In this document: positions 1 through 64,000 of the stretch, in pieces | Position numbering within the stretch: position 1 is the stretch's first letter | How the letters are laid out: every line of letters begins with the position of its first letter | Assembly (NCBI RefSeq): GCF_027307225.1 | Contig: NZ_DAHUXJ010000116.1 | Span: forward strand, 1-64,000 | Direction: 5' to 3' | Origin: Bradyrhizobium sp. | GTDB lineage: Bacteria; Pseudomonadota; Alphaproteobacteria; Rhizobiales; Xanthobacteraceae | DNA: 64,000 bases | Notes under the pieces: model-generated | Told to the model about the DNA's origin: nothing | What the model saw: only the letters and a program-made list of their open reading frames with translations | Database searches by the model: none | Made by a program: the position numbers and the translations under genes

Positions 1-301
1 GACTGATCTGACTCACGATTCTCGAAAATCGCCTTTTCCGCTACTGGACACGCAGTTCGCTGCTGTGGAGCTTCGAATCGAATCACAAATTGGATGATTT
101 GTGAACATCGGCGCGGCCAATCACATGGACACTTTTGGCAAGCGAATTTCGCCTCAAGTGATTCAAGAGATTCGGTTTTCTGCGTGTCGCGGCCGCAAAC
201 TTCAGTCTAAAAGCCCCCACCCCGGCTCGCTCGGAGCGCAGAGCGCTCCTGAGCTCGCCGACCCTCCCCACGCTTTCGCGGGGGAGGGATAAGAAAGCCC
301 G
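1..301. other. Intergenic region downstream of the sugar ABC operon
   Basis: No convincing gene is present. The two short ORFs here lack a family match and a ribosome binding site. The stretch contains a perfect 8-bp inverted repeat near base 83. At about 215-290 there is a GC-rich palindromic block (CCCTCCCC...GGGGGAGGG) that resembles dispersed repeats of this bacterial group and could also help end transcription of the minus-strand operon that stops at 302. Confidence 0.5.
83..104. promoter_or_regulatory. Perfect inverted repeat TCACAAAT-N6-ATTTGTGA
   Basis: Two 8-base arms separated by six bases are exact reverse complements. The AT-rich arms and 22-bp span look like a dimeric repressor operator (GntR or LacI style) rather than a terminator, because no T-run follows. 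The gene it would control lies outside the window or is not recognisable. This is a structural observation only. Confidence 0.4.
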
Positions 302-37199: not shown

Positions 37200-37481
37200 C
37201 TAGGCCAGCAAATCGCTGAGGTCGCGCCATTCGAGATTGTCGCGCTCGATAAGCTCGATCTTCCAATCGCGCTTCCACCGTTTCAATTGTTTTTCGCGGG
37301 CAATGGCCTCATCCGCGCGATCGTACGATTCGACGTAGACAAGCCGATGGACGCCATAGGCTTTCACAAACGAAGACCCATCGCCGTTTCGATGTTGGTC
37401 CAGCCGTTTCTGCAAGGAATTCGTCACCCCAATGTAGAGGGTTCCGTGACGTCGGCTGGCAAGAACATAGACGTGAAACAT
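37200..37481 (-). CDS. GIY-YIG nuclease domain protein (UPF0213/UvrC-N type)
   Basis: 93 aa, a single GIY-YIG domain. HVYVLAS (Tyr5) and TLYIGVTN (Tyr17-Ile-Gly) give the namesake motif, Arg26 (QKRLDQH) and Glu63 (AIAREKQLKRWKR) fit the catalytic arginine and metal-binding glutamate. It is the small free-standing type found in many copies in this bacterial group. It sits exactly between two palindromic repeat blocks (37046-37181 and 37501-37644) with less than 20 bp to either, so gene and repeats may move or be maintained as one unit. Confidence 0.9.
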   Translation of the reverse strand: MFHVYVLASRRHGTLYIGVTNSLQKRLDQHRNGDGSSFVKAYGVHRLVYVESYDRADEAIAREKQLKRWKRDWKIELIERDNLEWRDLSDLLA

Positions 37482-60448: not shown

Positions 60449-62854
60449 TCAACGCAGAGCGCCGCCGGTCTTCTTGTTGACCTCCGCCACGATCTTGGCG
60501 GCGACCGCCTCGATCTCCTGGTCGGTCATGGTCTTTTCGCGGGGCTGGATGGTCACGGCGATCGCGACAGACTTCTTGGCCTCGTCGATGCCCTTGCCTT
60601 CGTAGACGTCGAACACGGTGACACCGGTGATGAGTTTCTTGTCGACGCTCGAGGCCGCGCGCAGGATGTCGCCGGCCTTCACCATGCGGTCGACGATGAA
60701 AGCAAAATCGCGCGACACCGGCTGGAATGCCGACAGCTCGATCGCTGGCCTGGCGCGGGTCGGCCGCTGCTTGCCGTCCGGAATGCGATCGAGGATGACT
60801 TCAAAGGCGATCAGCGGACCGTCGGCGCCGAGTTTCTCCAGCGCGCGCGGATGCAGTTCGCCGAAATGACCGAGCACGTTCTGCGGTCCGATCTGGATGG
60901 TGCCGGAACGGCCGGGATGCAGCCAGCTGGTGCCGCCGGGCACGACCTGCAGCGCCTGTATCGGCGCGCCTGCGGCCGCGAGCACCGCAAAAGCATCGGC
61001 CTTGGCGTCGAACGCATTCGTTGTCGCCGAGCCGGTCCAGTTGCGCCCGAGCCCTGCCTGTGAGGCAAAGCCGTGACGAATGCCGGCGGCCGCAGTGAGT
61101 TGCTCATCCGGCCTATCGCCCCTGAACACCTGGCCGACTTCGAACAGCGCGACATCGGCAAAGCCGCGGTCGGAATTGGCCTGCGCTGCGGTGACGAGAC
61201 CCGGCAGCAGGCTCGGCCGCATGTCGGACAGATCGGCCGCAATCGGGTTGGCGAGCGAAAGCTCTGGCCTGCCGCCGCCAAACAGTTCAGCCTGCGGCTT
61301 CGAGATGAACGACCACGTCACGGCCTCGACCATGCCGCGCGCCGCGAGCGCGCGCTTGGCACGGCGGGTGCGCAGCTGCATCGGCTTGAGCACCGGCTTG
61401 CGCGGCGCCTCGCCGCGTTCGAACGGCGTCATTGGCACCTGATCGACGCCGACGATGCGCACGATTTCCTCGACGATGTCGGCCTTGCCGTGCACGTCCG
61501 AGCGCCATGAGGGGATCGCGACTTTCACCACGGGGCCGCTGCCTGCCACCATGAAACCGAGATGACCGAGGATGCGCTTCATTTCCGGAAACGCGACATC
61601 GATGCCGGCGAGGCGTTTTACTTCCGCCACCGGGAATTCGATGATGCGGTCGTCGCCGAACGCCTTGCCGGCCACGATGTTTTCCGACGGTGTGCCGCCG
61701 CACAGTTCCATCACGAGCCTGGTCGCCATTTCCAGCCCCGGCACCATGAAGGCCGGATCGACGCCGCGCTCGAAGCGGTAGCGCGCATCCGAATTGACGC
61801 CGAGCTTGCGGCCGGTCTGGGCAATGTTGATCTCGTTCCACAGCGCCGATTCGATCAGCACGTCGGTGGTTGTCTCCGAACAGCCGGAGGCTTCGCCGCC
61901 CATGATGCCGGCGAGCGATTCGACGCCCTGCTCATCCGCGATCACGCACATGGAATTGTCGAGCGTGTAGGTGCGGCCGTCGAGTGCAAGTAGCGTCTCG
62001 CCGTCGCGGCCGCGGCGCACCACCAGATCGCCCTTCACCTTGGCTGCGTCGAACACGTGCAGCGGGCGGGCGCGGTCGTAGGTCATGAAGTTGGTGATAT
62101 CGACCAGCGCGTTGATCGGCCGCAAACCGATCGAGGTCAGGCGCTTTTGCAGCCAATCCGGCGAGGGGCCGTTCCTGACGCCGCGCACCAGGCGCAGCGC
62201 GAAGCCGGGGCAGAGATCCGCGTCTTCCACCTTCACCTTCACGGGACAGGGGAATTCGCCTTTGACCTGCTTGATGCCGGGATCCCTGAACTTGCCCATG
62301 TCGGCGGCGGCAAGATCGCGCGCGATGCCGTGCACGCCGGTGCAGTCCTGCCGGTTCGGTGTCAGGTTGATTTCGAAGGTGGGATCGCCGAGCGCCGCCC
62401 ATGCGGCATAGGCCGTACCGATCGGCGCGTCCGCCGGCAGCTCAATGATGCCGTCGTGGTTTTCGGAGATCTTCAGCTCCGCCTCGGAGCACAGCATGCC
62501 GCGGCTCTCGACGCCACGGATGGTGCCGATGCCGAGCGTGATGTCCTTGCCCGGGATGTAGGTACCGGGTGGCGAGAATACGCTGATCAGCCCTGCGCGC
62601 GCATTCGGCGCGCCGCAGACCACCTGCACCGGTGCCGCGCCGCCTCCAGTGTCGACCATGCACACACGCAGGCGATCGGCGTTCGGGTGCTGCTCGGCCG
62701 AGATCACGCGCGCAATGGTGAAGGGCGCGAGCTGCCTGGCCTTGTCTTCAAGGCCCTCGACCTCGAGCCCGATCATGGTGAGCTTGTCGGCGAGCTTTTC
62801 AACGGGCTCGTCGGTGTCGAGATGTTCCTTCAGCCAGGAGAGGGTGAATTTCAT
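60449..62854 (-). CDS. pheT: Phenylalanyl-tRNA synthetase beta subunit
   Basis: 801 aa, the normal length for PheT. It starts with [33 protein letters not shown], has the EMAP/tRNA-binding-like domain (about 40-150), B3/B4 editing region, the B5 domain and a C-terminal anticodon-binding FDX-ACB domain ([27 protein letters not shown] to ALR). It forms the alpha2-beta2 enzyme with PheS encoded upstream. The start codon overlaps the stop of the DUF559 gene (ATGA), which lies inside the pheS-pheT interval, so translation of pheT may now be coupled to the intruding gene. Confidence 0.97.
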
Positions 62855-63240
62855 GGCTGGCCTCGGCTCGCTTCACCTCCCCCCTTGAGGGGGAGGTCGG
62901 TCGGCTTTGCCGACCGGGAGGGGGGTGTTGATCGTGCGATCGTCTCGATGATGGCTTCCAGCACCGACTCGCGATGGCGAAGCACGTCGGTGTTCCAAAA
63001 CCGAAGAACTCGATAGCCCTTCGCGTTCAGCCAAGCTTGGCGCAACCGATCGCGTCGAGCTTCTCGGTCATTGGCGTGCTGACTCCCGTCAAGCTCGACG
63101 ATGAGGCGGTATTCGTGACACGCAAAGTCGACAATGAACGAACCAATCGGGACCTGGCGACGAAAGCTCAGTCCATTGAGACGATGGGCACGCAGCTGGA
63201 TCCAAAGGACGCGTTCAGCATCGGTCATTTCTGATCGCAT
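62851..63240 (-). CDS. DUF559 (Vsr-like) endonuclease-domain protein
   Basis: 129 aa. After [39 protein letters not shown] comes [19 protein letters not shown], giving the Asp/ELDG pattern of the DUF559 family related to very-short-patch-repair nucleases. The last roughly 25 residues ([18 protein letters not shown]) are encoded by the flanking repeat, so the real domain ends near residue 105. Codon 1 at 63240 or the Met four codons later may be the start. The gene interrupts pheST and is flanked by long inverted repeats, like a small mobile cassette. Confidence 0.88.
62871..62930. repeat. Left inverted repeat of the DUF559 cassette
   Basis: CTTCACCTCCCCCCTTGAGG...GGGAGGGGGG. It contains a nested hairpin (GGTCGGTCGGC...GCCGACC). 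The reverse complement of 63294-63350 matches it closely over about 57 bp, differing mainly in the inner loop arms (GTCGGC/GCCGAC here, GTTCGC/GCGAAC there), a compensated change. Confidence 0.88.
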
Positions 63241-63293
63241 CGATTTGGCTCGGAATCGATTGATACCTGCGACCGGCCTGTGGGCGGGCGCAG

Positions 63294-63350
63294 TACCCCC
63301 CTCCCGGTTCGCTTCGCGAACCGACCTCCCCCTCAAGGGGGGAGGTGTTC
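63294..63350. repeat. Right inverted repeat of the DUF559 cassette
   Basis: CCCCCCTCCCGGTTCGC...AAGGGGGGAGGTG, the inverse of the repeat at 62871-62930. Together they enclose about 360 bp containing the DUF559 gene between pheS and pheT. Confidence 0.88.
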
Positions 63351-63376
63351 CCCCGTGCGTCACCATCGGGTTATCC

Positions 63377-64000
<624 letters not shown>

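Follow-up and report, generated by a model that had tools for sequence, protein, structure and literature searches.

A DUF559 nuclease gene between inverted BoxC-like repeats in the pheST operon of Bradyrhizobium, and the association of its family with such repeats in other bacteria

In a Bradyrhizobium sp., a gene for a small DUF559 protein lies between pheS and pheT and is enclosed by two inverted repeats that resemble the BoxC/PIT repeats. The association of DUF559 genes with repeats of this kind is itself near certain and is observed well beyond this genus. Our best reading, to which we give a probability of about 0.6, is that a DUF559 nuclease comparable to RAYT drives a REPIN-like element with triplex-motif ends. 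The repeats themselves were already known (PMC4666352). What is new here is that the DUF559 nuclease family is tied to BoxC/triplex repeats, and our search of the open-access literature found no earlier link of DUF559 or ycjD to BoxC, REP or triplex repeats.

On the minus strand of the window (the whole stretch of 64,000 nucleotides that was analyzed), the gene order is pheS, an ORF of 171 amino acids and pheT, the ORF sitting between two essential genes (Table 1). The first-pass annotation had placed the cassette at 62851-63350, limits that stop 16 bases short of the 5' end of the ORF at 63366. It had also described near-perfect inverted repeats around the nuclease gene, and this was confirmed: the aligned arms (62874-62926 and 63295-63347) are 53 nt long, 87% complementary and spaced by 368 nt, and a search of the whole window for inverted pairs within 2.5 kb returned them as the longest. 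As had been claimed too, the arms differ by compensated changes in the inner hairpin, which concern two base pairs (CGGTCGGC/GCCGACCG versus CGGTTCGC/GCGAACCG) plus the loop. A single arm, taken as single-stranded DNA, is predicted to form two hairpins (z from -4.4 to -5.8), and equally stable structures were obtained with 0 of 200 shuffled sequences. Both arms fall within the DUF559 reading frame, and the expected overlap between the end of the ORF and the beginning of pheT was found as ATGA, where the TGA stop of DUF559 is shared with the ATG of pheT. The score of the pheST locus for straddling inverted repeats is 35.5, or 28 with the flanks taken from the tblastn match, and none of 287 displaced controls from 78 other loci scored above 17.5.

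Table 1. Coordinates of the features in the window.
Feature	Position	Strand	Remarks
DUF559 (PF04480) Vsr-like PD-(D/E)XK nuclease ORF	62851..63366	(-)	171 aa; profile match, conserved residues
DUF559 domain within the ORF	62938-63255	(-)	
pheT-side repeat	62874..62928	.	hairpin 1 62875-62897, inner hairpin 2 62898-62916, purine third block GGAGGGGGGTG 62917-62927
pheS-side repeat, inverted	63293..63347	.	hairpin 1 63324-63346, hairpin 2 63305-63323, third block 63295-63304
pheT, phenylalanyl-tRNA synthetase beta subunit	60449..62854	(-)	start overlaps the DUF559 stop
pheS, 3' part	63377..64000	(-)	continues past the window edge
Stray hairpin CTCCCCACGCTTTCGCGGGGGAG	264..286	.	repeat family of another DUF559 in the same genome (L004, contig C107)

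In each arm, a first hairpin is followed by an inner one and by a purine tract that mirrors the first, a design which, judged from the sequence, is the architecture of the BoxC/PIT intrastrand-triplex repeats. BoxC/PIT repeats have been known in Escherichia coli since the 1990s, without a function or a source. The published motif, CCCTCNCCC-N3-6-GGGNGAGGG-N3-GGGNGAGGG, bears the names of BoxC, PIT element and intrastrand triplex motif TM_ECO (PMC4666352). A survey of 2015 listed 3,610 copies of TM_ECO in 262 genomes (Holder et al. 2015, PMC4666352), and triplex formation in DNA has been demonstrated for the E. coli motif (PMC4666352). A core recurs at DUF559 loci, namely CCCTCTCCC-loop-GGGAGAGGG, and GGGTGAGGG comes after it either directly or past a second hairpin. 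Both window arms present a pyrimidine-purine hairpin of about 9 bp with a short loop, and in both of them the third block agrees with the purine arm of hairpin 1 at 8 of 8 mirror positions; a third block mirroring the purine arm at 7 or more of 8 positions was found at 64 of 69 loci, for an expectation of 35 from shuffled sequences. The window arms fail the exact TM_ECO consensus, a 19-nt hairpin replacing the 3-nt second loop and the stems being CCTCCCCC. Because of this hairpin and of the different stem, they are a BoxC-like variant and not strict TM_ECO. The earlier idea of a palindromic cassette thus holds for the enclosure of the nuclease by repeats and not for plain terminal inverted repeats, the arms being units of the BoxC/triplex type.

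Many other DUF559 loci fit the published pattern. With two mismatches allowed, the TM pattern (PMC4666352) occurs within 400 bp at 15 of 30 non-alphaproteobacterial DUF559 loci versus 1 of 95 distal segments, and its hairpin-2 variant at 64 of 73 loci in the order versus 6 of 134 controls. The likeness with BoxC/PIT/TM_ECO (PMC4666352) comprises the pyrimidine arm, the loop, the purine arm and the purine third block, as well as many copies and inverted (palindromic) pairs; the E. coli copies are of the same type, and one of them adjoins ycjD. The difference is that no mobility gene is reported there (PMC4666352), whereas a specific nuclease family is found here.

The nuclease in palindromes is not a single case, and an association of DUF559 genes with such repeats, for which the first-pass annotation had proposed a genome-wide check, was borne out. 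In the order, 73 DUF559 loci from 91 genomes were analyzed by local alignment of the left flank to the reverse complement of the right flank. The median score was 24.5 for DUF559 and 10.5 for displaced positions, with a control maximum of 17. Straddling repeats (score >17) were observed at 49 of 72 DUF559 loci versus 0 of 30 HNH loci taken from DUF559-bearing genomes of the same set (Fisher, 1e-11). Within 350 bp, a pyrimidine-purine hairpin was present at 69 of the 73 loci of the order and in 1 of 120 control segments, and the loci devoid of straddling repeats mostly have a whole repeat pair on a single side. An artefact of GC-rich composition is ruled out by the displaced and HNH controls, which were negative. 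DUF559 genes elsewhere without repeats had been envisaged as evidence against the link; most stand-alone DUF559 genes carry them.

A cross-phylum set of 80 loci from 85,462 species was chosen by protein similarity alone, one locus being left out (L164, whose high score was an N-run artefact). Straddling repeats were found at 28 of 44 alphaproteobacterial, 9 of 13 gammaproteobacterial and 4 of 4 betaproteobacterial loci, and at 8 of 11 loci from other groups (Melainabacteria, Gastranaerophilales, Planctomycetota, Desulfobacterales, Chloroflexi and more); the 99th percentile of the cross-phylum controls (n = 287) was 14.6. The order, genus and cross-phylum sets share a few taxa, and their counts are not additive. 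The association reaches gamma- and betaproteobacteria, Cyanobacteriota, Planctomycetota, Chloroflexi and ycjD of E. coli, where the repeats lie directly 3' of the gene. A gonococcal DUF559 gene and one from a Synechocystis plasmid have repeats on either side. Direct repeats of about 100 bp at two loci (L115, L128) correspond to whole repeat pairs on both sides; those at L066 and L075 were discarded as the product of misplaced domain coordinates at contig-cut loci.

The genome of the window contains five PF04480 genes, four of which stand alone (L001-L004). All four are enclosed by inverted palindromic repeats of related but different sequences; the automatic score misses the repeats of L004 because its arms share architecture rather than sequence. 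The fifth gene (L005, contig C83) has no repeat, is located downstream of a TrmJ-like RNA methyltransferase ORF to which it is apparently fused, and probably represents a different use of the domain. The repeat types are CTCCCCCTTGCGGGGAG for L002, CTCCCCACGCGTTCCGCGGGGGAG for L004, CCTCTCCC for L003 and CTCCCCCTCAAGGGGGGAG for the window, and gene-free copies of the first three are clearly present at other places in the genome. Among the matches listed, the window subtype (TCAA loop plus hairpin 2) has just its own pair, so that this family would be small or old; relatives with ACAA and GCAA loops exist. In another genome (G164), three repeat families told apart by their loop have one DUF559 each, and in the CTCCCCCCGCTTGCGGCGGGGAG family the two repeats are spaced by 431 bp around the gene and by 78-99 bp in gene-free pairs. 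The gene-free pairs of the window's genome are oriented like the cassette, with hairpin 1 outward and the third blocks inward; in some other genomes, DUF559 is flanked by pairs of the opposite orientation.

Similar DUF559 proteins have similar repeats. The value was 0.686 versus 0.553 +/- 0.024 when repeats were swapped among DUF559 of the same genome (0 of 1000 shuffles), and 0.641 versus 0.558 +/- 0.018 (0 of 5000) when pairs with similar distal flanks were left out. Repeat and protein therefore co-vary beyond host and locus.

The number of repeats follows the presence of the nuclease as well. Across 80 genomes, the median number of hairpins was 41 with a stand-alone DUF559 and 1 without (p=1.5e-10), and repeat number tracks DUF559 number with a rho of 0.74, or 0.88 for the means of 43 families. 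Repeat-rich genomes make up 26 of the 32 with DUF559 versus 6 of the 48 others. The latter six could possibly have lost DUF559 after the spread, and six DUF559 genomes are repeat-poor. In E. coli, 3366 of 5426 genomes have ycjD, which its cognate repeat adjoins. When 59 chromosomes were taken as a ranked spread, the median was 20 BoxC-like places per chromosome with ycjD versus 6 without (p=1.4e-8), a contrast confounded with lineage; the lowest counts include an ST131 strain, and O157:H7 without ycjD has 12. In the E. coli genomes lacking ycjD that were inspected (L312-L314, compared with L315), a multidrug efflux cluster adjoins sapF, at the place of ycjD in the others.

Concerning the protein, a profile search assigned the ORF to PF04480/DUF559 (E=7.4e-40), and the catalytic-type residues E13, D42, E53, D55 and H59 are invariant in 12 relatives. 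The median dN/dS for 142 pairs of the genus is 0.12, and the protein is under purifying selection. The AlphaFold2 model (pLDDT 87) has as its best fold match NGO0050 of Neisseria gonorrhoeae (3hrl), similar in sequence too (E 7e-25) and encoded in a species with a DUF559 locus that has comparable two-sided repeats. This entry, the sole solved DUF559 structure that we found, is labelled just 'putative endonuclease-like'. The second-best match is the catalytic domain of the homing endonuclease I-Bth0305I (3r3p, E 2e-5, TM 0.69), with which DUF559 shares the fold and from which it differs in being flanked by repeats and not housed in an intron or intein. The model also matches the very-short-patch repair endonuclease Vsr (1vsr, 1cw0), and the protein thus combines a Vsr fold with PD-(D/E)XK-type residues. 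It differs from Vsr by its housing in repeats, and no cytosine methyltransferase gene was seen beside it in 60500-64000. A role in a defence system was dropped, the PADLOC matches being weak and directed to nuclease domains of large defence proteins.

The closest parallel is RAYT-REPIN, in which each REPIN group adjoins its own single-copy RAYT (Bertels and Rainey 2011, PMC3116915). Both systems have inverted doublets, several families per genome, a single-copy enzyme gene for each of them and an apparent co-evolution. Gene-free inverted doublets of the DUF559 repeats do occur in the genome, and one enzyme gene adjoins each repeat family in G000 and G164. On the other hand, RAYT is a Y1 (HUH) transposase whereas DUF559 is a PD-(D/E)XK-type nuclease (PF04480, not PF01797), and the GTAG/CGTC tag at the repeat foot is absent from both window arms. 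Because of this different enzyme and of the missing tag, the DUF559-repeat unit is RAYT-REPIN-like by its anatomy without being a member. An ordinary RAYT-REP pair was noticed in the same genome (L132, contig C55), namely a Y1 transposase-like gene between GTAGGATGGGT palindromes that are GTAG-tagged and have no triplex motif.

On this basis, the cassette would be a REPIN-like element in its gene-bearing form, with BoxC/PIT-type repeats as its ends. We infer every step of the mechanism, including binding, cleavage and copying of the repeat by the enzyme. The purine block would fold back onto the pyrimidine-purine hairpin as a third DNA strand, and DUF559 could recognize its own repeat family, folded or single-stranded, probably at replication forks, and then nick or cut at the repeat or at the target. 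PD-(D/E)XK enzymes hydrolyse DNA and do not join strands, so that insertion would have to borrow host repair. Host repair or template switching could then copy the repeat pair elsewhere, with or without the gene, and the gene-free inverted pairs would be non-autonomous offspring. The nuclease would be kept in single copy and evolve slowly for each repeat family, as RAYT does for REPINs, and at pheST a frame kept open through the repeat would leave pheT translationally coupled. DUF559 is the best candidate for the missing enzyme spreading the BoxC repeats.

One would also wonder whether the nuclease could be a housekeeping processor of repeat hairpins or triplexes, involved in fork clearing or mismatch-like repair without spreading the repeats, the gene being kept beside a repeat whose structure regulates it. 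The Vsr-like fold and the purifying selection are in line with such a role. So is VsrA, a DUF559 protein of Caulobacter described as a putative mismatch-repair nuclease that brings about an SOS response upon the loss of ScmA methylation (PMC12907096). The DNA-damage response following this loss requires VsrA (PMC12907096), and at least one DUF559 protein has thus a DNA-related effect in the cell. However, a processor needs neither a position between two inverted copies nor a separate gene per repeat family, and it fits the co-variation and the repeat number more poorly; we consider it unlikely.

A further possibility, in our opinion somewhat more doubtful, is that another agent moves the repeats, with DUF559 as chance cargo between two copies. 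Gene-free pairs greatly outnumber gene-bearing ones, and the nuclease has no strand-joining domain, as one would expect of a passenger. Yet the same gene family would be the cargo in several phyla, and the study that catalogued the TM_ECO repeats reports that their surroundings hold no remnants of a transposase or integrase (PMC4666352). RAYT can be rejected as the mover of DUF559-type repeats: RAYT (PF01797) showed no association with repeat number in the 80 genomes (p=0.23), its flanks are different, and repeat-rich genomes without RAYT are common (26).

The pheST site itself varies among relatives. The first-pass annotation had counted a gene fixed at this place in all relatives as evidence against a cassette; the junction is empty, with overlapping genes, in 4 of the 30 nearest congeners, and holds in the others an ASCH-like ORF, a lone repeat or a DUF559 between other repeat types. 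Of the empty sites and target duplications that it had proposed to look for, the former exist, and no target-site duplication or recent insertion is evident: the RTGA ending pheS and the RTGA of pheT, conserved at every filled site, mimic a 4-bp duplication, and both are coding requirements. By eye, the ASCH-like small ORF was seen in about one third of the nearest congeners (L027, L030, L032, L039, L046-L048, L050). The lone repeats (intervals of L034, L035, L037, L041 and L053) resemble deletion products between direct repeat copies, and such copies flank DUF559 at pheST in relatives such as L053.

DUF559 lies beside pheS in at least 63 of 145 congeners, and in other families of the order at pheST and glyQS too. 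The pheST proteins of other types are 46-54% identical to that of the window, for a PheS identity of about 95%, and a single vertical DUF559 at pheST in the genus is unlikely, even if the AU test does not reject it. A first tree required seven changes for pheST, a number to be taken with caution, given the mere 105 or so columns of the domain. In a more careful tree, a single pheST clade was not rejected (AU 0.155 and 0.105), so that pheST may have been invaded repeatedly or occupied once, long ago, with later exchange. Across families, DUF559 returns at the same junctions of housekeeping genes, namely pheS-pheT, glyQ-glyS, cysS-cimA and dnaN-recF; some of these names were read by eye in the translated flanks.

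The pheST and glyQS junctions each host more than one type of DUF559. This, together with the appearance of the lone pheST repeats, the homology that the repeat arms supply and the homing endonuclease domain as second-best fold match, would agree with homing only, where the nuclease cuts gene-free copies of its own repeat pair and repair then inserts its gene, so that a REPIN without the gene acquires it while no repeats are founded at new sites; but this leaves the rise of repeat number with DUF559 number unexplained and would make the cutting of dozens of copies costly, unless folded DNA alone is cut, and we hold it for the least probable of the explanations considered.

The suggestion that translation of pheT may depend on the cassette ORF has gained strength, on sequence grounds. 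At 34 of 37 pheST loci, with several protein types, the DUF559 frame continues without interruption across the repeat and ends in a stop that overlaps the start of pheT, which points to selection for translational coupling between DUF559 and pheT. In the glyQS copy (L002), the DUF559 stop directly abuts the glyS start.

If our preferred reading of a nuclease-driven, REPIN-like element is extended to all these bacteria, DUF559 and the intrastrand-triplex (BoxC-type) repeats could form a previously unrecognized class of bacterial mobile DNA, in which a Vsr/homing-type nuclease, with DNA ends able to form triplexes, would have founded and would maintain repeat populations in many phyla, including BoxC of E. 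coli via YcjD. We lean slightly towards this broader view. A second, unrelated enzyme class would then be added to the RAYT-REPIN idea, and a function would be suggested for a widespread family of unknown role that is usually annotated as Vsr-like. It would also provide a natural protein for testing the recognition of DNA triplexes. A cognate nuclease would make the question of the source of BoxC directly testable in laboratory E. coli, a species in which ycjD occurs naturally.

Finally, a second small nuclease in palindromes had been reported within the window. The small GIY-YIG genes at 37257-37478 (-) and at L057 indeed have palindromes on both sides (TCCCTGCGAAAGCAGGGA; ATTCCGGG family), with a sequence unlike that of the DUF559 repeats and, by eye, no triplex third block. 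They could possibly represent a parallel nuclease-repeat pair with another repeat class. In a Melainabacteria contig (L168:2264-3334), an ORF resembling an M14 peptidase contains a repeat-DUF559-repeat unit in frame.
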